Below are positions 7,787-36,721 of a DNA stretch of 64,000 bases, one piece after another. The notes below the pieces were generated by a model, which saw nothing but the letters and a program-made list of their open reading frames with translations, was not told the DNA's origin and made no database searches. The position numbers were made by a program, and so were the translations under genes. Positions within the stretch are counted from its first letter, which is position 1, and the number at the start of each line of letters is the position of its first letter. The stretch is from positions 62,001 through 126,000 of IMG/VR virus record IMGVR_UViG_3300031578_000004; one strand, given 5' to 3'. The DNA comes from a virus.

Positions 7787-7802
7787 TTTAGCAGGATGGA
7801 GC

Positions 7803-8280: not shown

Positions 8281-8512
8281 ACAATAAAAAAGTAGGGCAT
8301 TAAACCTTACTAAAAATTACACTATAATCCTTATCTTTTCCTTCAAACCATTCATGTTGTCTAACAAATCTTCTGGAAATATATAAATAGCACGATGTTT
8401 AATTGTTTCACAAGTTTCTATCTTTGCAATCGCATAAAAGTAAGTTATAAATAGAGGAATTTGTGAAAAAATATAGAAGTAATATAAGAAATTTGCAAAA
8501 GGGGGAAACAAA

Positions 8513-11400: not shown

Positions 11401-11580
11401 TTCTCCCTTTACACATTTTTTGAGGCTTCTCTAATTTATGCCATCATCTCTTCTTACTATAATTCGCAATTTTCAAGTTTCTCCTTTTAATTTTATTTAT
11501 TAAAAGTTATATAATAAATGAGCCTCTACGGTCATTGTAGAAGCTCTAGAAAGTTATCCCGTTAAAGGTAGACAGAAATA

Positions 11581-11943: not shown

Positions 11944-12021
11944 TAAAAACACCCTTTCATATAATACAATGAACATAAGTAATACAAATTCGAGAGTAAT
12001 ATACCAAATTTTCTTCTATGT

Positions 12022-12273
12022 TTATTTATTCAAATCATCTAAGCTCTTTTTAGTTGGTGGGCGACATACTTTACATGCTTCTAATCCATCATATAAAGCC
12101 CTAGAGAGATTTATATCTATCGCTTTACCTTTTACATATCTACAATTCATACGGTGATATTTTGCCCCTGCTGATGTTTTATAGACTGATATATCATTCT
12201 TTGGGGCTTGATAACATGATGTGAGTGATAAACACAATATAACTAATAATAACATTAGCAATTTTCTTTTCAT
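12022..12273 (-). CDS. Lipoprotein with small Cys-containing domain (83 aa)
   Basis: Signal peptide with lipobox LSLTSC (Cys at residue 20). The mature part has the pattern VYKTSAGAKYHRMNCRYVKG then IDINLSRALYDGLEACKVCR, a YHxxxCxxxK...A...G...C..C arrangement known from small metal-binding or nuclease-associated C-terminal modules in Firmicutes. Start ATG overlaps the stop of the upstream membrane gene by four bases, so the two are cotranscribed. Confidence 0.7.
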   Translation of the reverse strand: MKRKLLMLLLVILCLSLTSCYQAPKNDISVYKTSAGAKYHRMNCRYVKGKAIDINLSRALYDGLEACKVCRPPTKKSLDDLNK

Positions 12274-12563
12274 ATAATTTCATCCTTTGGTATACATATA
12301 GCTATTAGAACTTTCAGAATAATTCCCCCTATTATATATGTAAATACAATAATAGAATATTTAGTTAAAAGTGTATGGCTAATTTCGTAGCCTAGTATGA
12401 TTAAGTATATTTGTGATACAAACGGAAAACATAAACTTGCTAATCCCCATAAAACCCCGTTTATAGTATAAATAATATAAGCAGTCCACAAATGAATCCC
12501 TCCACCAACTAATCCTAATAAAATATTAACAATAAAACTTACATAGAATATGCTTTTTCTCAT
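12270..12563 (-). CDS. Small integral membrane protein (97 aa)
   Basis: Three hydrophobic segments: SIFYVSFIVNILLGLVGGGI, a WGLASLCFPFVSQIYLIILG stretch and YSIIVFTYIIGGIILKVLIA. TAAGGGAGGTAAT precedes the ATG. Overlaps the lipoprotein gene downstream by ATGA. Function unknown. Confidence 0.6.
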   Translation of the reverse strand: MRKSIFYVSFIVNILLGLVGGGIHLWTAYIIYTINGVLWGLASLCFPFVSQIYLIILGYEISHTLLTKYSIIVFTYIIGGIILKVLIAICIPKDEII

Positions 12564-12647
12564 AATATTACCTCCCTTATTTTTACAACCACATTAATCC
12601 CTCTTTCAAATTAATAACATATATATCAACATTGAACACATACCTTT

Positions 12648-12809
12648 TTAATGAATAGAACCACAAATTGTTCGCTTGCACCCAATCCATCCTATAGATA
12701 TCAAATGTTCCCCTTTAGTATAAAAATAAACAGCGTAACCTTCAGCATCATAACTTTTTTTATAATATTCCCACCCGCAAGAATTTAATAATATTATGCC
12801 TTTTCCCAT
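12648..12809 (-). pseudogene. Possible 53-aa ORF or gene remnant
   Basis: The frame MGKGIILLNSCGWEYYKK continues to KRTICGSIH and has protein-like composition (Trp, Cys, Tyr). It lacks a Shine-Dalgarno. A strong AGGAGGA precedes a different, out-of-frame ATG at 12846. This suggests a small gene broken by an indel near 12810-12846. Confidence 0.35.
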
Positions 12810-12955
12810 TGAAGCAGTTTAAGCACGATTACACATAACCATCATAAATTAGTCCTCCTTCATTAATATTGTTATATATAGACTTTCTCGATGAGCATTT
12901 GTCGACTTTTAATAATAAAAATCTATCCTAATTTTAAGCTGTTTAGATCAACCTT

Positions 12956-13704
12956 TTATTGAGATATATCTTTATTCTTTTGTTTCAGTAACATCTTTAG
13001 AGACTCTACAGTACTATATTCCCCTTGGCCAGCAGGTACTAATAATACATAATTTTCTATGCAATTGAGATTTTCTATATCAGTTGTTTTCTGATCCTCA
13101 TAATAATCTTCTACTATGGAATCTACACAGTCTTGCTTCTCTTCTCTGTATTGTATTTCATATGTTGCAACCTTAACTCCACACTTACTACAATATTTCT
13201 CGTTATCTATGATAACATTACCACATTGTGTGCAATACTTTGCTAATTTACTAACTTCTATTGAATCACTCTCATCATTATTTTGTATAACATCATAGTT
13301 ATTTTGTCTTTGATCGATTCCATAATTATTTAATCCGCTGTAACTTCCCTTAACTAGTAAAAATATATAAAATACTAGGTTAACTATAGGAATATAGCCG
13401 ATTATAAAATACCCCCTGGCAAATTTATATCATGTAATCTCCTTATAAAGTTAACAATAGATATCCAGACTATTAATAATGTAGCTGGAAGAAAAATCTG
13501 ACGGGCAAATTGATATGTATATTTAAATGTTTTAAAAGCCTCTCTATTATTTGTTCTGCCTATCTCTATCATTGTCTTATTTACATTACTAAGCCACACG
13601 CTTAATATAACAAAGGCAAAAATTGTGACAATGAAAGTAATAGCATATCTTATTCTTGTATTCCGCCCCTTATAAAAAAAAACTTTATTTAAGAACTTTT
13701 TCAT
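12956..13704 (-). pseudogene. DUF805 membrane protein with zinc ribbon, split by G-run frameshift
   Basis: The first frame (13402-13704) gives 100 residues of a DUF805 membrane domain ending RRLHDINLPGG then a stop. Adding one G to the GGGGG run at 13412-13416 (minus strand) opens the frame YFIIGYIPIVNLVFYIFLLV, completing the canonical DUF805 C-terminus. It then continues through a zinc ribbon (CTQCG and CSKCG) to a stop at 12956. The corrected length is exactly 250 codons. So the gene is either disrupted, phase-variable at the G run, or affected by a sequencing error. Three membrane helices precede the cytoplasmic ribbon. Confidence 0.8.
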
Positions 13705-20140: not shown

Positions 20141-20862
20141 ATGCAATATTTCGGAGGAAAACAAAGGATTGCAAAACATATTGCAGAATGGCTTAACTCT
20201 ACACACACACACACACACACTATGTAGAACCTTTTTGCGGAGCGTGTAATGTTGCATCTAAAATACATATTAAAAATAAGATATTAAATGATAAAAATCC
20301 ATATTTAATTGAAATGTTTAAAGCAATTCAAAAAGGATGGATACCACCTACTTATGTATCTGAAGAAGATTATGCCAATGCAAAAAAGAATCAAGATAAT
20401 GAACCGCATATAGCAGGATTTGTTGGATTTGCTTGTAGCTTTGCAGGAAAGTTTTGGGGAGGATATGCTAGAGATAGTAAAGATGGTAGTGGAACTGGAA
20501 ATTATGCTTTGAGAGGTCATAATAGTATTTTAAAGAAGATGGAAATATTGATGGATGCACAATTTACATGTAAAGATTTTATGGAATTAGATTATGAAAA
20601 TTGTTTAATTTATTGCGACCCTCCATATAAGGGAACTACACCTTATTATAAAAAGATATTAGGAGAATTTCCATATGATAAGTTTTTAGAATGGGTTAAA
20701 GAACAAAGTAAGAATAATACAATAATAATTAGTGAATATAAACATAATGTTCCTAATGATGCATACATAGTTTTGGAAATACCATCAAAAACAAGTATAA
20801 GAGATAAAACTGGCAATGTAATTGAAACAATTGAGGTTTTATGGACTTATAATAATTTTTAA
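20141..20862 (+). pseudogene. D12-class DNA adenine methyltransferase, out of frame at an AC repeat
   Basis: The ATG at 20141 follows GGGAGGTTTCT. The N-terminus MQYFGGKQRIAKHIAEWLN is the usual D12 start. The frame then enters ten AC units (20201-20220), encodes THTHTHT and stops at 20225. Immediately after the repeat a second frame continues YVEPFCGACNVASK (SAM-binding FxG motif) to 20862, with IYCDPPYKGTTPYY as the catalytic DPPY and a C-terminal IIISEY block. Removing one AC or adding two restores one continuous reading frame, so the gene is likely phase-variable and currently OFF. The expected product methylates adenine N6 in a short recognition site. Confidence 0.88.
20201..20220 (+). 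repeat. (AC)10 simple-sequence repeat inside methyltransferase
   Basis: Ten perfect AC dinucleotides between the N-terminal and FxG-motif parts of the methyltransferase. Tract lengths of 9 or 12 put the ATG frame ON; 10 and 11 are OFF for that start. Confidence 0.95.
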
Positions 20863-20869
20863 TACATAA

Positions 20870-20889
20870 AACAAATAATATAAAAATAA
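20870..20889 (+). promoter_or_regulatory. Copy 5 of 20-base element
   Basis: Exact AACAAATAATATAAAAATAA between the methyltransferase stop and the next gene, 27 bases before its ATG. Confidence 0.6.
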
Positions 20890-20916
20890 AATAACAAAAC
20901 GGAGGTAACAAAATAA

Positions 20917-21384
20917 ATGACAAACAACACAAACAATTCCACTTCCCCAGATTCCGACTCCCAAATAGAAGGTTTTAACCACACAGGTATACTACTACTA
21001 AAGCCTATGCAAAACAAAATAGAATATAGACTATATGACACAAAGATACCTTATCCTATATGTGTAGAGAATTGGGATGTAAATGAGAGTCTTGAATTAC
21101 ATACATATAAAAACACATCACAAGAAACATATATACATATTTCAAGCGGTAATGAATTAATATGTGAAGGTATAGGTAAATTGAATAAGTATGTTGAAAA
21201 TGGAGTAGATAAATATTATTTAATTACAGGAAAATATGTAGATTATATAGACCTTGAAAGAATCTTATTTAACTCAACAGAAAAAACAATTAATATAAAA
21301 ATAAACACATTCCACAACGAAGAAGTAATCGTAGATGAGAAAGGAAGTCAAGCAGATGAGTCAAGAGAAGAACAACAAAGTTAA
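20917..21384 (+). CDS. Hypothetical protein (155 aa)
   Basis: ACGGAGGTAACAAAATAA precedes the ATG. Ser/Thr/Asn-rich disordered first 20 residues, then a beta-rich domain (TGILLLKPMQNKIEYRLYDT, LELHTYKNTSQETYIHISSG) and an acidic tail. No motif recognised. Overlaps the start of the next small gene by 29 bases. Confidence 0.55.
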   Translation: MTNNTNNSTSPDSDSQIEGFNHTGILLLKPMQNKIEYRLYDTKIPYPICVENWDVNESLELHTYKNTSQETYIHISSGNELICEGIGKLNKYVENGVDKYYLITGKYVDYIDLERILFNSTEKTINIKINTFHNEEVIVDEKGSQADESREEQQS

Positions 21385-21553
21385 TACGGCTAAAAATGAA
21401 GGATACAGTGATGTTTATGAAAGTTGTAGTATTTGTGGTAGAGATATGAGCAATCCAAAATACATATTTGTAGAAGTAGATTCAGATTTATATATTTGTG
21501 CTATTTGTAAGAAAAAACATAATATTCATGCTGTACAATGTGCAGAGATATAG
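21356..21553 (+). CDS. Zinc-ribbon protein (65 aa)
   Basis: The start at 21356 is preceded by AAAGGAAGTCAAGCAG. Contains CSICGRDM and CAICKKKH about 25 residues apart, a classic two-knuckle zinc ribbon, with beta strands between (YIFVEVDSDLYI). Probably nucleic-acid or protein binding; specific role unknown. Confidence 0.6.
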   Translation: MSQEKNNKVNTAKNEGYSDVYESCSICGRDMSNPKYIFVEVDSDLYICAICKKKHNIHAVQCAEI

Positions 21554-21749
21554 AAATCTCAACCAATTGCGAAATTGATTAAAAGTGAATAATGAGTTTT
21601 ATATGGCGTGAACACTCGTGATTTCAGTCGTGTGAGGTTCAGGCTAGAGAAATAAAAAATCCATTTTCAAAAATGAAGAGATATTGCAAAGCTGAGTTCT
21701 GTGAAATTTTATTGAAGGATTATGAGGTTTAGAAAGGAGATAAATATAA

Positions 21750-22337
21750 ATGACATGTATTATAGGTGTATTTGATAAAGAACAAAATTGTGTTTATATA
21801 GGAGCGGATAGTTTAGGTTCAAATGGATATAGTCAACAATTATTTAGAAATAAGAAAGTATTCAAAGCAACAGATAATTCAAATATAGTAATGGCTATTA
21901 GTGGAGATTATAAACTCTCTAATATATTGTCTATAGAGGATAAATTAGTTGAAGAGTTGAAAGAATTGAAAAACGAAGTTAATATTTCACATATTATTCA
22001 ATATACAGTTCCTAAAATAATTGACTCTGCTATGAAATATAGATGTTATAAGAATAGAGATGGGTATGTAAGTATTGAAGGAGATATTATATTTGCATAT
22101 AAAAATCAATTATATATAATAGAAAGTAATTTACAGGTTTTAGAGTCTGATGATGATTACTTAGCTAGTGGTTCGGGGAAACAATTCGCTATGGCAGTAC
22201 TTTCACAGAATAAAGATAAAAGTACCATAGATAGAATTAAAGAAGGTTTAGAGGCATCTGAGAAGCATGGTATTGGTATTAAAAGACCTTTTTATATTAT
22301 GAATACTAAAGATGATAAAGTTATTAAGATTGATTAA
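21750..22337 (+). CDS. Ntn-hydrolase, proteasome/HslV-like phage protein
   Basis: 195 residues. N-terminus MTCIIGVFD followed by VYIGADSLGSNGYSQQLFRN and KKVFKATDN, then IVMAISGDYKL. This is the arrangement of proteasome-beta/HslV-type N-terminal nucleophile hydrolases, with Thr2 or Cys3 as nucleophile after Met removal. A C-terminal ASGSGKQFAMAVL segment also fits the fold. Phages often encode such HslV-like proteins of unknown substrate. AGAAAGGAGATAAATATAA precedes the ATG. Confidence 0.75.
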   Translation: MTCIIGVFDKEQNCVYIGADSLGSNGYSQQLFRNKKVFKATDNSNIVMAISGDYKLSNILSIEDKLVEELKELKNEVNISHIIQYTVPKIIDSAMKYRCYKNRDGYVSIEGDIIFAYKNQLYIIESNLQVLESDDDYLASGSGKQFAMAVLSQNKDKSTIDRIKEGLEASEKHGIGIKRPFYIMNTKDDKVIKID

Positions 22338-23947: not shown

Positions 23948-24181
23948 ATGATAGATAAGAGTAATCATAAAAAAGTAGGTAGAGGGTTATATTTAAAATT
24001 CACACCAGAAAATTTTATAAACACATTTAAGTAATATGAAATTAATGAAAAAGATATTGAAGTTGGAGATACTTATGATTTAGAAGAATGTACAATACCT
24101 ATATATATTGCAGAAAATGTTCAAGGTGATTATGAATGTGTTTGTGAATTTGGAACTGAAATACATGAAATTGGAGATTAG
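23948..24181 (+). pseudogene. Small gene with in-frame TAA at codon 29
   Basis: GGAAAGGAGAGAATAA precedes the ATG. The frame reads MIDKSNHKKVGRGLYLKF to NTFK, meets TAA at 24032, then continues YEINEKDIEVGDTYDLEE to a natural stop at 24179. A CAA-to-TAA change is the simplest explanation. Intact length would be 77 residues; family unknown. Confidence 0.6.
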
Positions 24182-24222
24182 AAAAAATATAAAATTAGAT
24201 GAAGGAGGAATATAAAAATAAT

Positions 24223-24426
24223 ATGATAAAAACAGAACATGATGTAATAAGATTCATAAAGAGATTTCCAGATAAAATAATAACTTCTGAAAACATTTCC
24301 GAAAGAATGATTGCTAAAACATGGAAATGCTCAAGTTGTAAGACAAAATATTATAGTGAACTTGGTAGGATAATACCGAGTCCGTGTGAGATGTGTGGTG
24401 GGATTGGGTTTGAGAAGGTTGAGTAG
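24223..24426 (+). CDS. Zinc-ribbon protein (67 aa)
   Basis: HDVIRFIKRFPDKIITSENI followed by a two-knuckle zinc ribbon: WKCSSCKTKYY and SPCEMCGGIGF. The upstream ATG at 24199 overlaps the GAAGGAGG and cannot use it; the ATG at 24223 is 14 bases past it, slightly long. Small nucleic-acid-binding type protein of unknown role. Confidence 0.55.
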   Translation: MIKTEHDVIRFIKRFPDKIITSENISERMIAKTWKCSSCKTKYYSELGRIIPSPCEMCGGIGFEKVE

Positions 24427-24459
24427 GGGATAGGATTTGATAGTAGATAGGAGGATAAT

Positions 24460-24693
24460 ATGAGCATAAAATATATAAAACAATTTAGTATTCCTTATTG
24501 GATAAATAGAAAATTAGATTTAGACTTGTTTTGGAGATTTAGTAATATTGAAAATATTAAAGAATTAATTCTAACAATATGGAAAGTTAAAAGATTAACT
24601 GATTATAAATGTCATGAAAATGAATGGGGTAGTAATTGGTGGAAACATATTGTGATTTGGAAGAGTAAGGGAAGGCTTAGACAGGAGGAATAG
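24460..24693 (+). CDS. Hypothetical protein (77 aa)
   Basis: ATAGGAGGATAAT precedes the ATG. Trp-rich (ten Trp in 77 residues): YWINRKLDLDLFWRF, WGSNWWKHIVIWKSKG. Its stop lies one base before the TTG of the RNA polymerase gene, so they are probably translationally linked and may work together. Not recognised. Confidence 0.6.
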   Translation: MSIKYIKQFSIPYWINRKLDLDLFWRFSNIENIKELILTIWKVKRLTDYKCHENEWGSNWWKHIVIWKSKGRLRQEE

Positions 24694-24694
24694 A

Positions 24695-27412
24695 TTGAAG
24701 AAAGAAAATGCATACATAATGAATTTAGAATCTGCTTATATATATAAAGATATTCAAGAAAATAAAAAGATAACCATTAAAAATAGAGATTTAACAAAAT
24801 TATTTTCAGCCACAATACCTTATAGTTTGGAAACTATTAGAATGAATAATATGTTTTCTGATACTTTTTATACAATAAAAAACAGTGGAAAACAATATAC
24901 TACAAAAATTATAAATGTCACTTTTGATAAAAACTATACTATATGGGATGACATAAATAAAAAAAGAATTACTTTAACTAATAAGAAAAAAATTAGAAAA
25001 CATCTATATGACAATGGATTTGTGATGGATGATGTGAAATATATTTTTTATAAAAGGGGAGCAGGAAAAGCTAAAAATGGTTACGCTTTCTATATTCAAG
25101 AAGATATGAGGGATAAATTAATCAATAGAAGTAGGTTAAATTTAAAATTTGAGAAAGATGAACTTCTTGATTTAACTTCACTTTTAGCTTATGAATCTTT
25201 AATTTCATCAAGTATAGATTTTACAATTAACTTAAATCCCTTAACAGAAATCCTATTAATAGATGATATATATGGGTTAGAGTTTGAAAGTCTTGCTAGT
25301 GTCACCAGAGAGCAAAATAAACACGTATCTACTCAGAATGAAACTTTAATTTTACAGAACTACTTAACAGATGGGCAGGGACTTCTTGATGAGTCAGTTT
25401 TTAAACAATATGATAAATCAGATAAAGGATTTATGCTTTTAAGAAGTGATATGTTTAAAGATTGTGGATTTAATACTAAGTTACAAGTATGGTTTAAGTA
25501 TAATAATATAGATACTCTAACAGATATGTTTGGAAATATATATGAAGCAAATAAAATAAAATTAGTAATTACCCCTAATTCATTAAAGTTCTTAAAGTTT
25601 GCTTATAAATTTACAAAAACAAAGACAATGGAAGAATATAATAATTTAAATAAAGAAGAACAAATAAAAGTAAAAAAAGAATGCTATGACTATTGGAAAA
25701 ACAATATTGATGATATGTTTGGTGTAGTTAAATGTGACAAAGAAGGTAATTATGGTAATTATAATAGAACTACATATCAAGTTTTAAATAGTATACCTAA
25801 TTTAACGTATGCAGAATTAATGGAAATTACGGAAATTGAAAGAGAATATGTAATGCTATTGAAGAACGATTTTGCTGTATTTAGAAACTATTTAGGCTGT
25901 GATGCTAAAACAAGTTTAAAATTAGAAAAGAAGTTAGAAGAAGGGGATATTAGTTTATATGAAAATACAGACTTAATAAATGCACTACTGTTGGTTAATT
26001 CAGATATTCAATATACCACAAAGTTTAAAAAGATAAAAAGTGATTTGATTGCTAATTATATTACTCATTTAAAAGAAGGCAAGATAAGAATGAAAGATTC
26101 TAAATATGTAACGTTAGTTTCTAATCCTTATGAGATGCTTTTAGCTTCAATAGGTAAATATAATAATAAGTCAATTATGAGTGGTAGGGAGGTATATTGT
26201 AAATATTATCAAGATGGTCAAAACTTTTGTGCCACAAGAAATCCTCATATTAATTCAGGAAATTTGATGCACACCACAAATAGATATCATGAAGAATATG
26301 AGGATTGGTTTAATTTAACTGATAATATTTGTGCAATAAACTTTTTTGATAATGATGCTCCAGATAGACTTCAGGGGTGTGACACCGATTCTGACACAAT
26401 TCTGCTAAATTCGAGTACCATATTGTCGAATAAAGCCAAATATTGTGAAGAGAACTTTCCTACTCCTATAAATAGAGTCGAAGGTAATTCAAAACCTAGA
26501 AAAAATAATATGACTGAATTACATAAATTAGATATTATATTGAGTGATAATTACATAGGTAGAATAGTTAATATGTCTCAAATAATTAATTCGTATTTAA
26601 ATGATGCTATTTCAAAAAGTAAGTCTAATGAGATAATAGATGAATTATATCAAGCAAGTAGTAAGCTATCAAGTATGAGTCAAATTGAAATAGATAAAAG
26701 TAAAAAGGTTTTTGATAATATTAAAATGAATAAAGAATTAGGAAAAATGAGAAATATTAGTTCTATAAGGTATGTTGAAGAAAAAGATAAGTTTGAAAAT
26801 ATGGTTAAGAAAATGGTAGTTCCTAATTTTTTTAATATGATTTCAGACTCTAATGATTACAGGGTGTTTGAGAAGTTTAATACCCCTTTAGATATATTAC
26901 AAGATATATTAGTGTTTAAGCACTCTGATTATAAGAAAGGAACAAAGAATATAGAATTAGTTGATTTATTAGTTAAGTCAAAAGAATTAGATGGAATATA
27001 TCAAATAAATAGTGCATTAGCTATATGTAAAATAATTGAGGATTGTGGAAAAAAGATAAATGGATTAAAGCTTAAAACATGTACATTGAATGATAAAGCT
27101 AAAAAAACCGTTGAGAGAAAATCTAAAAAAGAAGCTATTGAAAAATTAAAAAAATTAACCCCAAATGATGCAACGATTTTATCAATATTAAAACAAAGTT
27201 TTGGTAAAAAAGAAGATGATAGACTTGGATTTAAAAAATATAGTATGTTAACTTTAAATTTATTATTTATTTCTAAAAAAATTCAAGTGCTAAAATGTTT
27301 TAAAAACAATAATATGGCTATGGATGAAGTGTTGATAAAAATAAAAGATGAATATGATTTTAATATCTTTGGAGAAAATTATCAAAAGATGTTAAGAAAA
27401 GAAATTTTATAA
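24695..27412 (+). CDS. yonO: YonO-type single-chain two-barrel RNA polymerase
   Basis: 905 residues, about the length I recall for SPbeta YonO. The TTG start follows AGGAGGAATAGA. First barrel block at about 222-260: LTDGQGLLDES (D226-G229), GFMLLRSDMFKDCGFNTKLQ, the DGxG...R...K-type pattern of this superfamily. Catalytic barrel at 563-567: GCDTDSDTILL, a D-x-D-x-D metal-binding triad equivalent to DFDGD in YonO and the NADFDGD of cellular RNA polymerase. The C-terminal 300 residues are helical and basic. Such enzymes transcribe phage late genes independently of host sigma factors. The Gly-to-Ser change in the triad is unusual. The adjacent Trp-rich protein may be an accessory factor. Confidence 0.82.
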   Translation: MKKENAYIMNLESAYIYKDIQENKKITIKNRDLTKLFSATIPYSLETIRMNNMFSDTFYTIKNSGKQYTTKIINVTFDKNYTIWDDINKKRITLTNKKKIRKHLYDNGFVMDDVKYIFYKRGAGKAKNGYAFYIQEDMRDKLINRSRLNLKFEKDELLDLTSLLAYESLISSSIDFTINLNPLTEILLIDDIYGLEFESLASVTREQNKHVSTQNETLILQNYLTDGQGLLDESVFKQYDKSDKGFMLLRSDMFKDCGFNTKLQVWFKYNNIDTLTDMFGNIYEANKIKLVITPNSLKFLKFAYKFTKTKTMEEYNNLNKEEQIKVKKECYDYWKNNIDDMFGVVKCDKEGNYGNYNRTTYQVLNSIPNLTYAELMEITEIEREYVMLLKNDFAVFRNYLGCDAKTSLKLEKKLEEGDISLYENTDLINALLLVNSDIQYTTKFKKIKSDLIANYITHLKEGKIRMKDSKYVTLVSNPYEMLLASIGKYNNKSIMSGREVYCKYYQDGQNFCATRNPHINSGNLMHTTNRYHEEYEDWFNLTDNICAINFFDNDAPDRLQGCDTDSDTILLNSSTILSNKAKYCEENFPTPINRVEGNSKPRKNNMTELHKLDIILSDNYIGRIVNMSQIINSYLNDAISKSKSNEIIDELYQASSKLSSMSQIEIDKSKKVFDNIKMNKELGKMRNISSIRYVEEKDKFENMVKKMVVPNFFNMISDSNDYRVFEKFNTPLDILQDILVFKHSDYKKGTKNIELVDLLVKSKELDGIYQINSALAICKIIEDCGKKINGLKLKTCTLNDKAKKTVERKSKKEAIEKLKKLTPNDATILSILKQSFGKKEDDRLGFKKYSMLTLNLLFISKKIQVLKCFKNNNMAMDEVLIKIKDEYDFNIFGENYQKMLRKEIL

Positions 27413-27634
27413 TTATTTCTAAAAACAAGTGATTGCAAGGTGAAAATATTTTTATACCCCTCAAACCTTGTAGTACCAATGGTTCTACGATTGTCTATCT
27501 TCCTTGTATATGATATAGAACAACAAATATAAAAATAAATAATATAAGTGAGGCTTGTTGTGATAATAACCCTTTATATTATGTTTTTAAAAATACAGAC
27601 AGATAAACAATAAATAAGTAAGGGGATAGGACTT

Positions 27635-27934
27635 ATGAATAATTCCTGTAAAAATTGCATTATGGATTGTGACCAATATACAGAAAATGAATTATGTAAC
27701 AACTTCAAGAAAGCGAAGCCTGTTTCCGAATATAATAAAATTGTTAGAGAAGAAAATAGAAATCTACATAAATTCTGCGATAAAAATAATCTCAAATACA
27801 GTGAACTAATGAAAATGCTAAGATATAAGATTAGGTTTAAATATAAATATCGTGTTTTACTAGAAAATTTCTTGTATATGAAAGATGAGTGGAGTCAATG
27901 GATTGAGGATGGCGAAAAAACATATGGGGAATAA
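27635..27934 (+). CDS. Hypothetical Cys-rich N-terminus protein (99 aa)
   Basis: GGGGATAGGACTT precedes the ATG. N-terminus MNNSCKNCIMDCDQYTENEL with C-x2-C-x3-C spacing and a further CNNF could bind zinc. The rest is helical and basic (RYKIRFKYKYRVLLENFLYM). Overlaps the beta-CASP nuclease gene by 26 bases, implying coupled expression. Confidence 0.55.
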   Translation: MNNSCKNCIMDCDQYTENELCNNFKKAKPVSEYNKIVREENRNLHKFCDKNNLKYSELMKMLRYKIRFKYKYRVLLENFLYMKDEWSQWIEDGEKTYGE

Positions 27935-29363
27935 AAAGAAAAGTGAAGATAAGATAAAGATACAGTTTATCGGAGCTACAGATGAAGTTACAGGTTCATG
28001 TACATATATTCAAGTAGATGGAATAAATATATTAGTTGATTTTGGTTTGATACAAAACAATGAATTAACAATAGACCAACTATATAGATTAAATTCAAAA
28101 GAATTACCACTTCCAATGAGTAAAATCGACTATGTAATAATATTACATTCTCATTATGACCATTGTTCGAGACTCCCTATATTATCAAATTCTGAATTTA
28201 CAGGTAAGATTATTACCACAACTTTAACAGCAAAGCTAATGAATCTTATACTGAATGATTCAGCTCACATAATGAATAGAGAAGTAACAAGGGTGAATAA
28301 AAAGAGAACAGTAAAAAAGTTATCACCTTTATATACAAAATCAGATGTTGAATACATTATGACCTTTGTACAAGGTTATGATTTTAATAAAGAAATAATA
28401 TTAAATAATAGAACCAAAATAACTCTACTTCCTGCATCTCATATTAGTGGTGCAGCAATGTTGTATTTAGAATTTCAAGAATCTGAATATGTAAAGAAAA
28501 GAATCCTAGTTACATCAGATACAAGTGGAATAGATAGAGATGTTCCTTTTACTATGAAGCCTGATATAGAAAAATTAAAAGTAGATTTAATAGTTTCAGA
28601 ATCGACTTATGGTGATAGAGAACATGATGATATTAATCCTGAAGAACAGTTAGAAAAATGTATTAGGGATACTATTTTAGATAAAAAGAAAACTTTAATA
28701 ATCCCTTCGTTTGCGATGTCCAGATGCACGAATATAATATTAATGCTTTATAATTTATTTAATAAATATAAGGAATTTCAAGATATAGAGTTATATTTAG
28801 CAAGTCCTATGAGTATTAATGCACATAAGATTATTGGAGAAGATGAAAGTTTTGATTTCTATGATAAGCAATGGAGTCAATATAAGGACTTATTTAAATG
28901 GGATAAAATACAAATGATTGATGATTTTGAAATAGTTCAAACAAAATTAATTAATGACACTCCAAAACTGATAATCTCGGCTAGTGGAATGTGCGATAAT
29001 GGCTTTGTGAAATACATAATTAGTAAGTATTTACACATTAAAGATAATAAGATTTTAATTTCTGGCTATCAATCAAATGGAAGCCTTGGTAGGAAATTAA
29101 TTGACGGAATTACTAAAACAGTTACTATAGATGGAATAGCCGTACCTATAAAAGCAGATATAGAAATGCTTAAAAAAATGAGTAGTCACGCAAGTAAAAG
29201 TGAACTTGTGAATTTACTAAAGACAGTAGAAAAAAAGAAAGTAAAAAAGATTGCTTTGGTACACGGGCAAAAAGAAGCAAAAGAAAGTCTTAGAGAAGCA
29301 CTAAAGAAGGAATTTGATTGTGAGATTATTATACCGTATGAGAACATGATAATTAAAATATAA
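27909..29363 (+). CDS. Beta-CASP metallo-beta-lactamase-fold ribonuclease
   Basis: About 484 residues. Metallo-beta-lactamase motifs: LVDFGL, LHSHYDHCSRLP (HxHxDH), LLPASHISGAAMLYLE, ILVTSDTSG. Beta-CASP domain with motif A-type SESTYGDREH, IIPSFAMSR, ISASGMCDNG and a terminal VHGQKEAKESL. This is the CPSF-73/archaeal CPSF-like class rather than RNase J, judging by ISASGMC. Such enzymes cleave or trim RNA 3-prime ends. Next to a phage RNA polymerase it may process phage transcripts. The start could be 27909 or 27924; neither has ideal spacing. Confidence 0.88.
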   Translation: MAKKHMGNKKKSEDKIKIQFIGATDEVTGSCTYIQVDGINILVDFGLIQNNELTIDQLYRLNSKELPLPMSKIDYVIILHSHYDHCSRLPILSNSEFTGKIITTTLTAKLMNLILNDSAHIMNREVTRVNKKRTVKKLSPLYTKSDVEYIMTFVQGYDFNKEIILNNRTKITLLPASHISGAAMLYLEFQESEYVKKRILVTSDTSGIDRDVPFTMKPDIEKLKVDLIVSESTYGDREHDDINPEEQLEKCIRDTILDKKKTLIIPSFAMSRCTNIILMLYNLFNKYKEFQDIELYLASPMSINAHKIIGEDESFDFYDKQWSQYKDLFKWDKIQMIDDFEIVQTKLINDTPKLIISASGMCDNGFVKYIISKYLHIKDNKILISGYQSNGSLGRKLIDGITKTVTIDGIAVPIKADIEMLKKMSSHASKSELVNLLKTVEKKKVKKIALVHGQKEAKESLREALKKEFDCEIIIPYENMIIKI

Positions 29364-29404
29364 ATAATTAATATAAAATAAAAGGAATAAAAGGAGAAAT
29401 AAAA

Positions 29405-29602
29405 TTGGCAAATAAAAAGAATTCGGTTAGTTTCAAAAAAGGATTTATACATTTTGAAGATGATAAAATAACTTTTGAAGAAATAACTAAAGACGGTAGT
29501 TTCTTTTATGATTTAATAGCTACTTTAAAGGAATTTGATGGTATTGAAAATGTAAGTATCACAATAGGAAATGATAAAGATATCGCTCCTATAAAAGAGT
29601 AA
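29405..29602 (+). CDS. yonK: YonK-family small phage protein
   Basis: 65 residues, TTG start after AAAAGGAGAAATAAAA. GFIHFEDDKITFEEITKD and YDLIATLKEFDGIENVSITI parallel what I recall of SPbeta YonK (a small oligomeric protein with the ending NVSITVKEENELPV). Its place downstream of the YonO-type polymerase, as I recall in SPbeta, supports the call. Function unknown. Confidence 0.75.
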   Translation: MANKKNSVSFKKGFIHFEDDKITFEEITKDGSFFYDLIATLKEFDGIENVSITIGNDKDIAPIKE

Positions 29603-29609
29603 TAACAAA

Positions 29610-30700
29610 TTTAAAAAACGTGGTGGCGGAATAGATTTCTATTAGCATGAGTGCGAGTAGAGAGGTCTAGGAATGACCAGTAGACGCAAGCAAATTACAG
29701 GTTCGATGTGCTGAACGCACGTGGGTATAGCCAATATCCCACAACATGGCGCTGTCAAAAACTGTATGATATGTAGAGTGCAAATCTTTACCCACGTTTA
29801 ACAAATTAATATAAGCCGAAGGGCATTATAAATAAATAGAATATGTGGAAGGGCATCGAAAGAGTAAGTCCAGCCACAATAGAATGAATAGGGTATAGAA
29901 TCCCAACAAAGAAGATTTAACTATCCAGTGTGAGAAATCACACACCTGCCTATAACACAAATAACAGTTTACAAGTTTATATTTTGTGTGAAGAAAAACT
30001 TGTCTGAAACATATATAGTTACCTGTCGTATATGTGAATGGTTTACTGCTTGATAAAAGCAACAGGCAAAACTATTATTTATTTAATAGTCGGTACAATA
30101 TCACCGAATAGTCCTCATGATAGAGGTTTGTCAGAAGCCTACCAAATATCTGCATGGTAAAGCATGTAAAAACTTAGAGTGCGAGGTTTAGAGGAAAAGC
30201 CTTCCAAGATATTGTTTGAGGCAATGCACTTAAAAAACCCTGCTTTTATTACTTACTTGCTTTAGAGCAAGAGATTTTATCACATATTCTACATGTAGAA
30301 CACGAGAGGATATTGGACGTTCTGACATCTTCTCAACCCCTTAATTTTTACTATTTTGAGGATAGAACAGGCAGCTATCACACCATGAAAATGGTCTTAT
30401 AAGAGATGCAGGAGCTATATCAATAAGGATATAGAGTTTATAGATTAGAAATACATTTATAAACTGATTGTCGCCCTGCCAAATAGTTTAATAATCCTAC
30501 AGGGCATGTAATTTTGCTTGTGGAATAACATACATTTTAATGGTGTATCACAAGTTGGTAATATACTTTGTCAGAAGTACAAACTGACCATGTCCGAATT
30601 TGCCTTATATATAATTTTTTATTATACTCCCTCTAAAATACAGGTGCTTACTTGCTAATGGGTGGGCATCTGTATTGATTTAAACTAAAATAAGTAAATA
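29610..30700 (+). ncRNA. Candidate large structured non-coding RNA
   Basis: 1.1 kb with no plus-strand ORF, noticeably richer in G and C than the flanking genes, and full of nested stems: ACGTGGGTA/TACCCACGT enclosing a tRNA-like block (29719-29797), GTGTGA-GAAA-TCACAC (29928-29943), ATAGTT..CCTGT/ACAGG..AACTAT (about 30016-30075), CTTGCT-TTAG-AGCAAG (30256-30271), GCCCTG/CAGGGC (30473-30505), AGTTTATA/TATAAACT near 30435-30465 and CTTGTG..ATACA/TGTAT..CACAAG (about 30518-30555). A tRNA-Leu-like GTGGTGGCGGAAT and GGTTCGA words occur at its 5-prime end. Size, setting in a Firmicute phage and tRNA-like content recall the GOLLD and ROOL ornate RNA classes, but I cannot confirm either. Confidence 0.65.
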
Positions 30701-30725
30701 ACGAAAGGTGTTTGTTTAATAGAAA

Positions 30726-30899
30726 ATGAACAATTTTGAAGATAATTTTATTGATGAACTGGATGAAGCAGAGCAATCATACAATATCGACCTAAAAGTA
30801 ATAAAACAATTTAAACGAGAAAGTAAGCAGAAAAAGATAGATGGTAAGAAGAAGAAAAAAATTAATAAAATTAAATTAGAGAATGAGGAAAAGGAGTAA
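30726..30899 (+). CDS. Small charged protein (57 aa)
   Basis: GAAAGGTG precedes the ATG at 30726. Acidic first half (NNFEDNFIDELDEAEQSYNI) and very Lys-rich second half (KQKKIDGKKKKKINKIK). Stop is three bases before the next start. Possibly an RNA-binding or assembly helper; unknown. Confidence 0.6.
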   Translation: MNNFEDNFIDELDEAEQSYNIDLKVIKQFKRESKQKKIDGKKKKKINKIKLENEEKE

Positions 30900-30902
30900 A
30901 GA

Positions 30903-32078
30903 ATGAATAATTTAATTAGGTTATCTAATGAATGTATTAAAGATTTTAAAATTAGACTTTGTAAAAATAGAGAATTATATAATCTTACATGGGATGACCT
31001 TGCCGAAATTATTAATATAGAAACTGGTGATAAGTTTGGTGAATCTAAATATAGAAAATGGTGGTATGCATATTCAGAAGGTTTAAATGATGCAATTGAT
31101 AGTAATATAACTGAAGATAAATTTTTAATAGAATTGGATTTAAAACGTAGAGAATTAGAAAAAGAAAAACAGAGATTCTTTGACCAAAGGTCAGCATATA
31201 ACAAAATAGTAAGAGAAGATGCGAGACGTGATGAATTAAAAGACATTATAACAAATACTATAAAATATATTGAACCTTATAAAAATAATAATATTTTGAA
31301 AGTAGATTATTTACCTAATGATTTATTAGTTGGATTAAATGACCTGCATTTTGGAATTGAGATTGAAAACTATTGGAATAAATATAATTCAGAAATAGCA
31401 AAGCAAAGACTTGAAAAATATTTACAAGAAATTATATCTGTGCAACAATTACATAAATCTGAAAATTGTTATGTTTGTGCAAACGGAGATTTAATTTCTG
31501 GGGCAATTCATTATACAATTGCTCTAGCAAATAGAGAAAATGTTGTTGAGCAAGTAATGGGAGTATCAGAATTAATTTCGTGGTTTTTAAGTGAATTAAG
31601 TAATCATTTTAAAAATATTTATTTCTCTGTAGTGGCAGGAAATCATAGCAGATTAACAGTAAATAAAGATATGAGTCCTAAGAATGAGAGACTTGATGAT
31701 TTAATACCTTTTTATGTAAAAGCGAGATTGCAGAATTTAAAGAACATATTCATTATAGAAGATAAGGTTGATAATACAATGTCTTTGGTCGAGATAAGAG
31801 GATTGAACTATTTAGGAGTCCACGGAGATATGGATACTGTAAATGGTATTTTAAAACTTATTGAAATGTTACCACAGAAGATTTATGCAATAGTTTTTGG
31901 ACATTTACATCACAATGCCACTAACTTTACTCAAGGATATAAAACATTAATGTCAGGAAGCCTCATGGGAGTCGATGACTATTGTATTGAAAAACGTATT
32001 TTCGGTAAAGCACAACAATTAATAAGTGTTTGTGATAAAAATGGTGTTAAATGTAGTTATGATATAATGTTTCAATAA
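30903..32078 (+). CDS. Calcineurin-like metallophosphoesterase
   Basis: 391 residues. About 140 N-terminal helical residues (including WDDLAEIINIETGDKFGESK), then the phosphoesterase core: GLNDLHFGIE (DxH), NGDLISG (GDxxxx), VAGNHSRL (GNHD/E-like), VHGDMDT and VFGHLHHNAT (GHxH). All metal-ligand positions are present. From memory, similar proteins with this N-terminal extension are common next to terminase genes in Firmicute phages. A role in DNA processing or degradation (Mre11/SbcD-like) is an inference; the DNA-binding cap is absent. AAAAGGAGTAAAGA precedes the ATG. Confidence 0.85.
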   Translation: MNNLIRLSNECIKDFKIRLCKNRELYNLTWDDLAEIINIETGDKFGESKYRKWWYAYSEGLNDAIDSNITEDKFLIELDLKRRELEKEKQRFFDQRSAYNKIVREDARRDELKDIITNTIKYIEPYKNNNILKVDYLPNDLLVGLNDLHFGIEIENYWNKYNSEIAKQRLEKYLQEIISVQQLHKSENCYVCANGDLISGAIHYTIALANRENVVEQVMGVSELISWFLSELSNHFKNIYFSVVAGNHSRLTVNKDMSPKNERLDDLIPFYVKARLQNLKNIFIIEDKVDNTMSLVEIRGLNYLGVHGDMDTVNGILKLIEMLPQKIYAIVFGHLHHNATNFTQGYKTLMSGSLMGVDDYCIEKRIFGKAQQLISVCDKNGVKCSYDIMFQ

Positions 32079-32133
32079 ACAAATAATATAAAATTAATAT
32101 ACTCCTTTAGAATGTTTATCTATATGGAGTTTT

Positions 32134-32163
32134 GAGGTAGAATGTTTTTCTACCCTCTTTTAA
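32134..32163 (+). terminator. Rho-independent terminator
   Basis: GAGGTAGA/TCTACCCTC stem followed by TTTTAATTT. A preceding stem ACTCC/GGAGT at 32101-32130 may add to it. It ends the phosphoesterase transcript. Confidence 0.75.
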
Positions 32164-32227
32164 TTTATAGATATGAAAACAATTGATATTAGGCAATCAA
32201 TAATATAAAAATAAGCGAGGATAGTTT

Positions 32228-32812
32228 ATGAATAATACATTTGTCAAAGTAGAAGATGGAATAAGTATCTATGAAAAAATGTATAATGAATTACTTGATA
32301 ATAGAATTTTATACTTGAATAGTGATATAGATGACAACACCGTAGATATGATAACTATGCAAATAATAATAGCAAATGAAAGAGAAAAATCAATACAAGA
32401 AAGCGAATTGAAACCTATATGGATTTATTTAAATAGTTACGGTGGTTCAGCCGATGTATGTCTTCATTTAATTCAAGTAATTGAAGAATCTCGTATTCCT
32501 ATAAATGTAAAGGTTTTAGCAATGGCTGCTTCAGCAGGTTTATATCTAGCAGTGGCTTGTAAACATAGAGTTAGTTCTAAAAACTCTATCTTCCTACTTC
32601 ATAAAGGAAGTATTCAGATTGCAGGAAATATGAGCGAGGCAGAAGAAATTATGGATTTCTATAAGAATGAAGTACAAGAGAAAATGGATGATTTACTTAT
32701 AAGAAGAACTAAGATTACCAAAGAAGAATTAAAGAAAATTAGACGAAATGAAACATATTGTTTAGGGGAAAAGGCTTTAGAACAATATGGGTTTATTGAT
32801 GAATTAATATAA
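32228..32812 (+). CDS. ClpP-like serine protease
   Basis: 194 residues. RILYLNSDIDDNTVDMITMQ, then IWIYLNSYGGSADVCLHLIQ (ClpP GG loop), KVLAMAASAGLYLAVA with the catalytic Ser, and NSIFLLHKGS with the catalytic His. The Asp would lie in the following helical or loop segment. ClpP-like proteases near phage portal genes often act in prohead maturation. Here a separate protease-scaffold protein is encoded at 39 kb, so this one may process something else or modulate host Clp. AGCGAGGATAGTTT precedes the ATG. Confidence 0.85.
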   Translation: MNNTFVKVEDGISIYEKMYNELLDNRILYLNSDIDDNTVDMITMQIIIANEREKSIQESELKPIWIYLNSYGGSADVCLHLIQVIEESRIPINVKVLAMAASAGLYLAVACKHRVSSKNSIFLLHKGSIQIAGNMSEAEEIMDFYKNEVQEKMDDLLIRRTKITKEELKKIRRNETYCLGEKALEQYGFIDELI

Positions 32813-32853
32813 AACTATAATTAGAATTAAAAGGAGAAACAAAAGGAACGAAC

Positions 32854-33171
32854 ATAATACACAAAATTAATTTCAACGATGAAGGCATTTACGAAGAAAA
32901 ATACCTGTACAATGGTCAAGAAATTACAGAGACACAATTTGTGGGATTGGCTGAAGATTTAAAAGATTATGACAACGTTGAGGATTTTGAAGATGAATGT
33001 GATGATTGTTGTGGCTGTGGTGGATGTGGAAAAGAAGATGATTTAGAAAATAAAGGCATATCTGTAAAACTAAATGTTAGTTTAAATCCAGATGATTTAG
33101 AGGATATACTTGATACCGTAGATTATTTAGAAGAAAAATTAAGTAATATTAAGGTTAAATTTAGTTTATAA
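32854..33171 (+). CDS. Acidic protein with Cys cluster (about 105 aa), probable AUA start
   Basis: The frame from the first standard start, GTG at 32941, gives 76 residues. Coding clearly extends upstream: IHKINFNDEGIYEEKYLY then NGQEITETQFVGLAEDL. It reaches ATA codons at 32854 and 32857 about 6 bases after AAAGGA. The centre has CDDCCGCGGCG, five cysteines that could hold zinc or an iron-sulfur centre; the C-terminus is helical and acidic. Function unknown. Confidence 0.55.
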   Translation: MIHKINFNDEGIYEEKYLYNGQEITETQFVGLAEDLKDYDNVEDFEDECDDCCGCGGCGKEDDLENKGISVKLNVSLNPDDLEDILDTVDYLEEKLSNIKVKFSL

Positions 33172-33363
33172 AACCTAATCAATAATCCCTACCTTCCTTT
33201 TCTTTATGAGCTGGACTTAGTCCGATAGCAAGGAGTTGACTGTAGGGTTTATTATATATTATAAAGAATTTTAGAGTGAATATTGATAACTGCTCTTATT
33301 TAGATAAGGGCAGGATTGAGTATTTATTTTTACATTAAAATTTAAAAGGGAGATGAAAATCGG

Positions 33364-34332
33364 ATGCCTAGAGCAAATAAAAACAGTAAACAACTAAAAG
33401 CGGTGTCTGGTGAAGGATATTGCAGAAAATGTACCAATACATTGCCACTAGACAAATTCTACGAAACAACAAACAGGGATTTAGATACAAATGGAAAAAC
33501 ATCTATTTGCAAAGAATGTTGTAATTCTATTTATGATGTATATGCTGATAAATATAAAAGTATGGAAAAGGCTTTATATTTGACTTGTCAAGATTTAGAT
33601 ATGATGTTCAGTAAAGAAACTTTATTGCAAACACAATCTCATATAAATGGAATGGTGGAAAAAGGAAAAAATATAACTAAAGTTTTTGGTATTTACAAAA
33701 GTAAATTAAGCTCTACTGGTAAAAACAATTCAAAATTAGAGTCTATTAGATTTAAAGATAGTAATGAATTAGTAGATGAACAAAATAACGATGTAACAAG
33801 TGATAGTTTTGATGAAGATATAGAAGATGATTTAATATTATTTTGGGGTAGAGGATTTGATTTAGATGACATAATATTTTTAGAAACGGAATTGTCAAGT
33901 TGGAAACAAACTCATAAATGTGACAATCAGGCAGAATTAACATTATTGAAAGAAATATGTATAAAAATTTTAGATATAAGAAAATCAAGGGAAAAAAAAG
34001 AAAATGTAGGGACTCTTCAAAAAGAGCTACAAGACCTGTTTAAAACTTGTTCTGTTGACCCTGCAAAAGCAAATTCTGCAAGTGCAGGTAAGTCTCATGA
34101 GGCATTTGGTATTTGGGTTAAGGATATAGAACAACTTCGTCCTGCTGAATGGTTTGAACAACAAGAAAAATATAAAGATATGGATGGTTTCGTTCCGTAT
34201 ATAAAGAATTATATAGTTCGTCCCATAGAAAATTTCTTAACAGGTGTGAGAAATTTCTTTGTAGACGATAATATTGATGCGGATTTGGATAGTGTTGATG
34301 TTACTTCAAATGACGGTGAAACAAATGGGTAA
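33364..34332 (+). CDS. Putative terminase small subunit with N-terminal zinc finger
   Basis: 322 residues. N-terminal zinc finger CRKCTNTLPLDKFYE ... CKECCNSIYD, a helical middle, an acidic linker, and an ISLAND-like C-terminal region (PAEWFEQQEKYKDMDGFVPY, YIVRPIENFLTGVRNFF). The gene overlaps terminase by 8 bases, the usual TerS position. SPbeta-type phages encode a protein of this kind before the large subunit. DNA recognition for packaging is inferred from position and the zinc finger. Confidence 0.65.
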   Translation: MPRANKNSKQLKAVSGEGYCRKCTNTLPLDKFYETTNRDLDTNGKTSICKECCNSIYDVYADKYKSMEKALYLTCQDLDMMFSKETLLQTQSHINGMVEKGKNITKVFGIYKSKLSSTGKNNSKLESIRFKDSNELVDEQNNDVTSDSFDEDIEDDLILFWGRGFDLDDIIFLETELSSWKQTHKCDNQAELTLLKEICIKILDIRKSREKKENVGTLQKELQDLFKTCSVDPAKANSASAGKSHEAFGIWVKDIEQLRPAEWFEQQEKYKDMDGFVPYIKNYIVRPIENFLTGVRNFFVDDNIDADLDSVDVTSNDGETNG

Positions 34333-35583
34333 ATCGTATAGTAAATATGAAAATGACTTTAAGAAATACTCAGGTCATAGCAATCAATTTAAAGCACCTA
34401 AATCAATGATAAAAGAAAAAGATAGAAATGAATTATGGCAAGAAAATCTAATTGATTGGATTACATTCTATCGCCGTAATATTCATAGATTTATACAACA
34501 TTATTTTGGAGTACAATTATATTGGTATCAAATTATATGGATATATTTTATGAGTATAAGTGAAAGTTTTGTTACAATAGCATCGAGAGCCTCTGCGAAA
34601 TCGTGGCTAATCGCCCTATTAGCATATGCTCGTGGGTCGCTTTACCCCAACAGCGAAATTGTAATCGTGGCAAATTCTATGAAACAGGCTGCGGTTATTT
34701 TTGGAAAGATGGCAAGATTAAAAGATGATTATTCAAATATTGCAAGAGAAGTAAAAGATTTTTCTGATACTCAAAATAACTGTAGTTGCCTATTACATAA
34801 TGGTACAACAATTAAGGTTGTAGCGTGTCAGGAAAGTGGTCGTGGAGAACGTTCAACTTTCACAATTGGAGAAGAATTTCGGATTATGGATAAACAGAAA
34901 TTCGATAGTATAGTAAAACCTTTTGCCTATGCTAGACAAACTCCTTATTTAAAAAATCCGAAATATTCAAATATAAAAGTATTAATAGAAGAACCAAGAC
35001 AAATTCTTATATCTTCTGCATATCATAAAGGTTTGTGGTGGTATAAAGAAACATTAGATACAATAAAAATGATGTTAGAAGGTAAAGATGCTGGTTTTAT
35101 AGCTTTTGATTATTTAATTGCTATAAAACATAATATAAAAACTAAAAAGGCGATAGCAAGAGACCGTTCTACTATGGATGAAATCACTTTTCTTGAAGAA
35201 TATGAAAATATTCCTTGGGGAGAAAACAGTAATGCTTATTTTAAATTAGAGATGTTTAATAAAAATAGAAGCATTAAAAAAGCTTTTTATCCTTTAAGAA
35301 AAGATATTTTAGATAGTAAAAAAAATCCATATGACATAAAAAGAGTAGATGATGAAATTAGACTTGTATCTGTGGATATAGCTACAAGAAAAAATGAAAA
35401 AAATGATAATAGTATAATAACATGCATTAGACTTATACCAACTTCTAAAGGCTATGTAAGAGAATATGTTTATATGGAAAGTCATCAAGGTGAACATACT
35501 GGAAAACAAGCATTAAGGATAAAGCAAATATATCATGATTTTAGTGGTGATTATATTGTACTTGATTTACAGCAAGCTGGGAT
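34325..35583 (+). CDS. Terminase large subunit, exon 1
   Basis: The ATG at 34325 overlaps the previous stop. Joined to 36722-37265 the gene gives exactly 600 residues. ATPase: Walker A-like ASRASAKSWLIALLAY, Walker B TFTIGEEFRI. Nuclease: RLVSVDIATRKNEKND with the first metal-binding Asp and YIVLDLQQAG with the second. The exon ends CAAGCTGGGAT; splicing gives AGISVFEQLAVVTKDDERGI, a normal terminase continuation. The enzyme translocates DNA into the prohead and cuts it. Without splicing the frame runs 22 codons into the intron and stops. Confidence 0.92.
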
Positions 35584-36721
35584 GAACTTACTTGTCCTCC
35601 TTATAAGAAATTATAGGGTAATAAATTGCGGAACTAAGCGGGAAGGCTGAAATGCTAATCCGAACCGAAGGCTATAATATAAAAGGTGTAGTCAGGGGCA
35701 GAGCATAGGTGATGAGGAAACAATAATTCACCCAAGAGTCCGCAACATCTAAAATTGAATAAATTACTTCTAAACATCTCTAAAGGAGGTGTTTTTATTT
35801 GCTAATTTCAGAAACCGTTGAAACAAAATGGAATTCAAGAACTAAAAAATATTATGAATTACTAGGCTATATTTATACAAAAATGAAAGATTCTTTTATT
35901 GTAGATGTTTATGATTTAAAAGATAATAGTATGATTTATGTAGATGTACGATGTGAATATTGCGGAGAAAAATATTCAATATTATGGCTACATAGAACTA
36001 AAATGGTTTCAAAAAATATAAAGCATAAAGATTGTTGTCTAGCTTGTACTCCTAAAAAAGCTTCTGAAACGATGTTGTTAAAATATAATAGTAAAAATGC
36101 TATGTATATTAACGAATTTAAAGAAAAACAAAAACAAACTGTTTTAAATAATTATGGTTGTGAAAATGTTTTTCAAAGTGAAGAAGTTAAAAATAATATA
36201 AGACAGGGAAATTACCAAAAATATGGAGTAGAAAGTTACACTCAAACTGAAGAATGTCAAAATAAAAGAAAAGAAACATGCTTATTAATATATGGTGAAA
36301 CAAGTCATATGAAAACTAAAAAATACAAATTAATGTTTACTGGGAAAAATAATCCTGTATGGAAGGGTGGAATTAGGACAAAAAGAACAGAAAGAATAAC
36401 TAACGAATATAAAGAATGGAGATTATCTGTTTTTGAAAGAGATAGTTATGAGTGTTCTAAATGTCATCAAAACTCCCATGATTTACAGGCACATCATATT
36501 TTATCTTGGAGAGACAACGAAGATAAAAGATATGACGTTGATAACGGTATTACATTATGTTTGACTTGTCACCAAGAATTTCATAAAATTTATGGGAAAA
36601 CCATAGCAAATAGAGATGATTTATTAGAATTTATTCAAAAATGATGAAAATATATGCCGAACTATTAGGAATTATAACTAATAGAACTATAGAATAAAAA
36701 GTCTGTAGGATAACAAATTTG
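35584..36721 (+). mobile_element. Self-splicing-type intron (probably group I) in terminase
   Basis: The boundaries follow group I rules: 5-prime exon ends in T (GGGAT), intron ends in G (ACAAATTTG), and joining restores the frame. A G- and C-rich conserved core lies at about 35620-35755 (TGCGGAACTAAGCGGGAAGG, GAGTCCGCAACATC), followed by an HNH endonuclease ORF. The last eight bases CAAATTTG are identical to those of the second intron at 47262. Group assignment is less certain than for that intron because the P7 pairing is not obvious. Confidence 0.75.
35799..36644 (+). CDS. HNH homing endonuclease in intron
   Basis: 281 residues; start TTG at 35799 (AAAGGAGGTGTTTTTA precedes). N-terminal zinc-binding CEYCGEKYSILW ... 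CCLACTPKK, a middle of repeated NYGCENVFQSEEVK / KYGVESYTQTEECQ units that probably read DNA, and a C-terminal HNH nuclease: CSKCHQNSHDLQAHHILSW, DVDNGITLCLTCHQEFH. Cuts intron-less terminase genes to promote intron spread. Confidence 0.9.
   Translation: MLISETVETKWNSRTKKYYELLGYIYTKMKDSFIVDVYDLKDNSMIYVDVRCEYCGEKYSILWLHRTKMVSKNIKHKDCCLACTPKKASETMLLKYNSKNAMYINEFKEKQKQTVLNNYGCENVFQSEEVKNNIRQGNYQKYGVESYTQTEECQNKRKETCLLIYGETSHMKTKKYKLMFTGKNNPVWKGGIRTKRTERITNEYKEWRLSVFERDSYECSKCHQNSHDLQAHHILSWRDNEDKRYDVDNGITLCLTCHQEFHKIYGKTIANRDDLLEFIQK

Follow-up and report, generated by a model that had tools for sequence, protein, structure and literature searches.

A structured RNA block in an SPbeta-like phage

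The 64,000-nucleotide (nt) stretch of viral DNA analysed here (hereafter, the window), taken from a virus record of 130 kb (bases 62001-126000), carries in a rightward operon a block of about 1.1 kb that contains a skipping-rope RNA (RF02924), a family listed by Rfam as a small RNA (sRNA). We tentatively propose that this RNA may be a phage-borne relative of putative RNA antitoxins that would act on PBECR3, a predicted ribonuclease (RNase). The window phage is recognizable as SPbeta-like by its yonK homologue, its terminase genes and its genes for a polymerase and a phosphoesterase that resemble YonO and YonJ; the names YonO and YonJ, for which the matches are weak or distant, are presumably apt. 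The block and its surroundings are as follows.

27885-29363, + strand: gene for a beta-CASP metallo-beta-lactamase RNase, near the block
29405-29602, + strand: yonK homologue (PF09642), left flank of the block
29603-30715, + strand: RNA block, free of open reading frames (ORFs), G+C-rich and structured, read as a small-RNA array
30903-32078, + strand: YonJ-like metallophosphoesterase gene, right flank of the block

An earlier inspection of the letters alone (the sequence-only reading) had described a gene-free, stem-rich block, shifted towards G and C and placed between yonK and a phosphoesterase gene, and this description is borne out: no ORF exceeds 78 aa on either strand, the G+C content is 0.351 as compared with 0.261 (24000-29600) and 0.284 (30716-36644) on the flanks and 28% in the window, many stems are present, including the GAAA-tetraloop hairpin that it had singled out, and the phosphoesterase gene follows on the right side, preceded by an additional 57-aa ORF. 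Its statement that all other gaps are short holds for the rightward operon, of which the block is the longest gap, but not for the leftward-coding part, where a longer ORF-poor stretch lies at 6931-8316 (1.4 kb, free of 60-aa ORFs in both directions; one 200-nt segment of it is strongly structured, z -5.9). Compared with shuffled sequences, the whole block reaches folding z-scores of -4.7 (+ strand) and -2.4 (- strand); in 200-nt segments the mean z is -2.3 (+) and -0.7 (-), every + strand segment inside the block lying between -1.4 and -3.3, whereas a coding control (20314-22337) gives a mean of +0.2. The view of the block as structured non-coding RNA is supported. Sigma-70 promoters inside the block show no excess over shuffles.

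A skipping-rope RNA inside the block

When the block was scanned by cmscan with all Rfam 15 families, accepting matches up to E=5, the skipping-rope RNA was the sole family found, with 56.5 bits and E 1.9e-12 against a curated cut-off of 36.7. GOLLD (RF02032) and ROOL, which the sequence-only reading had put forward as possible identities, gave no match within that limit, nor did transfer-messenger RNA (tmRNA) or group I intron, and these candidates were rejected. The parts of the skipping-rope RNA are located as follows, P1 to P4 denoting its helices.

30350-30487, + strand: skipping-rope RNA (RF02924), model positions 1-80 matched, four helices intact
30366-30374, + strand: P2 loop AACAGGCAG, in which GGCA (30370-30373) is predicted to pair with TGTC (30469-30472) of the P4 loop
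30408-30479, + strand: P4 arm GCAGG/CCTGC, adjoining P1 as the T-arm adjoins the acceptor stem in transfer RNA (tRNA)

The window copy is like the RF02924 consensus in positions 1-80, in the four helices, of which P1, P2 and P4 are fully paired, and in the conserved letters, all of which are present, but differs from it by an insertion of about 60 nt in the P4 loop, which folds into two extra hairpins, and by its orphan state within a phage RNA block. The unconstrained minimum free energy (MFE) structure of 30350-30487 yields P1-P4, and the copy scores 63.5 bits with our own model (R1). No further skipping-rope copy was found in the block. Among annotated phages, BLASTN with the block as query returned only one chance-level 50-nt match, and nhmmer against 89 related loci returned none; BLASTN against the same 89 loci returned the skipping-rope RNA and a 24-nt element designated motif A, plus a few chance-level matches, so that for the rest of the block, which is most of its length, no relative was detected by either program.

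A tRNA-like cloverleaf with a loop-loop contact

The Rfam consensus runs in the order P1, 2 nt, P2, 1 nt, P3, 4 nt, P4, 0 nt, P1, and this order of arms and these linker sizes match those of tRNA, so that the RNA forms a cloverleaf with four arms. The structure is well supported on 50 aligned copies, with a covariation score of 0.451, as compared with 0.176 for shuffled and 0.08-0.13 for slid versions. In 96-98% of these copies the loops of P2 and P4 are joined by three pairs, with changes on both sides, a contact absent from the consensus structure printed by cmscan. In a separate parse, independent of that alignment, matched P2/P4 loops show greater complementarity than mismatched loops do (z 6.6). 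Statistics of this kind are inflated by the relatedness of the copies, but independent sequence swaps such as UGUGUU/GACACA, CGUGG/CCACG and CGUCCG/CGGACG are hard to explain otherwise. The covarying contact sits where tRNA has its elbow, resembling that formed by the D-loop and T-loop, and the window copy retains it as GGCA/UGUC.

PBECR3 as a partner gene

Bacterial skipping-rope RNAs stand on their own, measure about 80-110 nt and in many cases have a terminator-like hairpin behind them; their recurrent neighbor is a small ORF matching PBECR3 (PF18812), a family of predicted RNases (PMC5512222); all six A1 members match it, the best with E 3.9e-25. Among 398 evenly sampled Bacillota genomes, the RNA occurs in 28, PBECR3 in 21 and both in 15, where 1.5 are expected (Fisher p 3e-15). 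PBECR3 lies within 1.5 kb at 25 of 50 skipping-rope loci, a set in which one genome contributes several (17 of 30 in the even sample alone), versus none of 111 control loci (836 kb), and at 20 of the 25 linked loci the gene ends 20-115 nt upstream of the RNA on the same strand. When the search was anchored on the protein, the RNA stood beside 13 of the 15 small free-standing PBECR3 genes fetched (one detected by a laxer search only) and beside one of seven large multidomain PBECR3 fusions (two of the seven from Bacteroidota); viral loci found by the protein carried the RNA in all three cases, two of which were already in the set. The gene is thus rarely without the RNA, whereas the RNA is often without the gene, which is the pattern expected of a toxin and its antitoxin. 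In Bacteroidota, the small PBECR3 and the skipping-rope RNA are both nearly absent, so that replication of the association there is uninformative. The predicted PBECR3 structure (predicted local distance difference test, pLDDT, 89) has its best Foldseek matches among BrnT/HigB/RelE toxins, these matches being weak (E ~0.05), and no sequence relatives were found in the PDB.

Other families also adjoin the RNA. An Abi_2 (AbiF-like) gene (2.7e-13) directly precedes a single skipping-rope copy and a HEPN gene (5e-22) ends about 310 nt before another (L393, L293), while a DUF3800 gene (1.2e-8) precedes two neighboring copies in one genome (L202, L204). Abi_2, HEPN and DUF3800 are families that either belong to systems of abortive infection or conflict or accompany structured RNAs, and the Abi_2 and HEPN neighbors hint that the RNA may pair with several RNase families. 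In the equivalent gap of SPbetaL1 (L177, 4236-4300), a sub-threshold DUF3800-VIII RNA was seen (30.6 bits, cut-off 40.2). Terminase, suggested as a partner by two loci (L003, L004), was rejected, most bacterial copies having no terminase nearby.

The usual position of the RNA, 20-115 nt behind a same-strand gene, and the terminator-like hairpin that often follows it would also suit a cis-acting 3' element, that is, a terminator, stabilizer or processing signal of the preceding genes or of the phage operon, the link to PBECR3 then reflecting co-inheritance in a mobile cassette. We consider this unlikely, as several copies have no close same-strand gene upstream or lie between tRNA genes, a sequence like a -35/-10 promoter precedes one copy (L003), and tandem copies exist.

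Other elements of the block

Outside the skipping-rope RNA, the block contains the following elements.

29616-29799, + strand: alternative larger domain, closed by AAACGTGG/CCCACGTTT (z -1.7)
29719-29797, + strand: possible tRNA-like cloverleaf, with acceptor ACGTGGG/CCCACGT and T-arm TAGAG-TGCAAAT-CTTTA abutting the acceptor
29891-29914, + strand: motif A, 24 nt, GGGTATAGAATCCCAACAAAGAAG, identical in L228, L284 and L286
29928-29943, + strand: GAAA-tetraloop hairpin GTGTGA-GAAA-TCACAC, read from the sequence
30637-30676, + strand: long 3'-terminal hairpin AATACAG.../...CTGTATT, read from the sequence

The tRNA-like motifs noted earlier at the 5' end stand in part. ARAGORN called no tRNA in the block, the Rfam tRNA model (RF00005) gave no match, and CCA is absent; yet 29719-29797 can be drawn as a cloverleaf, with a D-arm (GCCA/TGGC) and an anticodon-like arm (TGTCA/TGATA), and when the block was shuffled 2000 times an acceptor abutting a T-arm, here of seven pairs, arose just twice. 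This cloverleaf lies 2.6 kcal/mol above the MFE structure, which is another fold. The alternative domain has a tRNA-Leu-like 5' part, GTGGCGGAATAG...GTAGACGC.

Motif A recurs in three other phage contigs (L228 at 437, L284 at 5907 and L286, in reverse, at 10850), with flanks unrelated among the four. Terminase genes lie downstream of it in L284, L286 and the window. The motif could be an RNA element or a DNA site, perhaps a packaging site; a promoter was rejected, since the motif is single-copy in the window even at five mismatches. In the terminase large subunit region of the window (34274-36644), a 458-aa ORF stops and is followed by an HNH endonuclease-like ORF (35799-36644); interruptions of a similar kind, there with a transposon-like ORF, occur in L178 and L180.

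The sequence-only reading had named one giant ornate RNA as a candidate. In such a structure of about 1.1 kb, which would be a new class, the skipping-rope RNA would be a domain, and the continuous structure on one strand agrees with this, as does the presence of skipping-rope RNAs within long non-coding blocks of L228, L394 and L400. However, the skipping-rope RNA is free-standing elsewhere, motif A and the skipping-rope RNA are split by a 177-aa ORF in L228, with a spacing different from that in the window, and no segment outside these two modules gave a homologue in the searches described above. A single giant RNA is therefore very improbable in our judgment; since the modules recur separately, we take the block for a small-RNA array. 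In L228, a near-perfect inverted repeat of about 21 bp (GCATCAATTCATGTGGGAACA ... TGTTCCCACATGAATTGATGC) stands at the end of the non-coding block (1774-1873).

Orphan copies in phages

PBECR3 is present in all five linked records and is absent from the window phage and the other large or SPbeta-like records with a skipping-rope RNA (G000, G009, G416, G417, G429, G435, G453, G456, G460 and W01). In L205, which is the closest of the sampled relatives that have a full-length match (phosphoesterase 62% identical), the RNA occupies the same place, immediately upstream of the phosphoesterase gene; it lies in the same phosphoesterase neighborhood in L228 and L002, and upstream of another phosphoesterase-like gene in L394/L395. 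Other relatives equally close to the window phage have no skipping-rope RNA, so that it is not universal. The orphan copies in relatives keep P2, P4 and the loop contact intact, which argues for a function.

Some copies travel with tRNAs. In a 100-kb phage record (L397/L360), the RNA is 4 and 6 nt from the tRNA genes on either side, in L002 a tRNA-Gly lies about 350 nt downstream, and in a 148-kb record (L400) the RNA is in a non-coding stretch of more than 2 kb with tRNA and sub-threshold tmRNA matches. Together with the possible tRNA-like cloverleaf of the block, the copies of L360/L397 and L400 might suggest a translation tool-kit, namely a worn phage tRNA array whose elements are decoys against anticodon nucleases or decaying tRNAs. 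This appears improbable, given that the window skipping-rope RNA is undecayed, its P1, P2 and P4 being paired and its letters kept, and that orphans persist in relatives with the intact features described above.

In a distant relative (L182, MT835469.1), a GOLLD RNA (172.6 bits) is found at 10786-13037 with tRNA-Met, tRNA-Arg and tRNA-Ser, flanked by the genes for a YonO-like RNA polymerase and a beta-CASP RNase, a neighborhood as in the window. GOLLD with three tRNAs upstream of the beta-CASP gene makes the earlier idea of GOLLD apt for the locus, although the window block itself has no such match. Staphylococcus phage SPbeta-like (L181, KT429160.1) has, after its phosphoesterase gene, a 1.7-kb ORF-free structured gap (5677-7370; mean z -3.3 on the + strand, one segment -6.8; no Rfam family up to E=0.5), which is a candidate new large RNA. 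Judging from the GOLLD/tRNA stretch, this gap and the tRNA-linked copies, SPbeta-like phages seem to use this region as a site for RNA cargo.

Discussion

In the proposed explanation, the block would be a polycistronic array of small structured RNAs in the rightward operon, among them a tRNA-like element and a skipping-rope RNA. The latter would serve as antitoxin to PBECR3, an RNase of RelE/BrnT-like type that is presumably toxic to the cell, and would bind this protein as a tRNA-shaped decoy. During infection, the orphan phage copy would be transcribed and cut out in the manner of the tRNAs with which it travels in some phages, and would neutralize in trans the PBECR3-type toxins, and perhaps Abi_2/HEPN-type toxins too, that the host or its resident prophages encode; pseudo-ToxI acts in this way on ToxIN. 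We regard this chain, from antitoxin of PBECR3 to counter-toxin RNA in phage, as the best of the readings but still a tentative one; the partnership of the RNA with PBECR3 deserves greater confidence. Somewhat more doubtful is the wider proposition that skipping-rope RNAs may form a class of tRNA-shaped antitoxins directed at RNase toxins, both those of RelE fold (PBECR3) and others, the orphans in the tRNA/RNA arrays of large phages being broad antidotes to toxin-based immunity.

Several points weigh against the proposed chain. About half of the bacterial skipping-rope RNAs have no PBECR3 nearby, some being beside ordinary genes, so that another role is possible; the Foldseek E-values for the PBECR3 model are only ~0.05; and G000 and other orphan records are possibly incomplete, which makes the absence of PBECR3 from them weak. 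As in type III toxin-antitoxin systems, an RNA adjoins a predicted RNase gene at the PBECR3/skipping-rope loci, while the window phage is without the gene; in the classic loci, however, repeats precede the toxin gene, whereas the skipping-rope RNA follows it and is usually single, with few tandem pairs.

The proposed system is worth comparing with two known ones. The abiF-motif RNA (RF03085) neutralizes AbiF by direct binding (PMC12373285) and is likewise structured and paired with a toxin RNase, in prophages as well as bacteria, an Abi_2 gene also being upstream of one skipping-rope RNA; it belongs, however, to another RNA family, precedes its gene, and acts on a toxin of HEPN type, not RelE-like. 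The pseudo-ToxI of phage PhiTE, which defeats ToxIN (PMC3475682), is likewise an antitoxin-related RNA in a phage without the toxin, but ToxI is a 36-nt repeat forming a pseudoknot, whereas the skipping-rope RNA is an 80-nt cloverleaf, mostly in single copy. In the titles and abstract beginnings of the open-access literature searched, which does not include the original description, no function is given for the skipping-rope RNA, and neither the link to PBECR3 nor the tRNA topology with its loop contact is mentioned. If the proposal is true, the skipping-rope RNA would go from an orphan motif to an element of defense and counter-defense, a tRNA-shaped member would join the few known RNA antitoxins, and pseudo-ToxI would gain a natural counterpart in the phage copies, one recognized from sequence alone.
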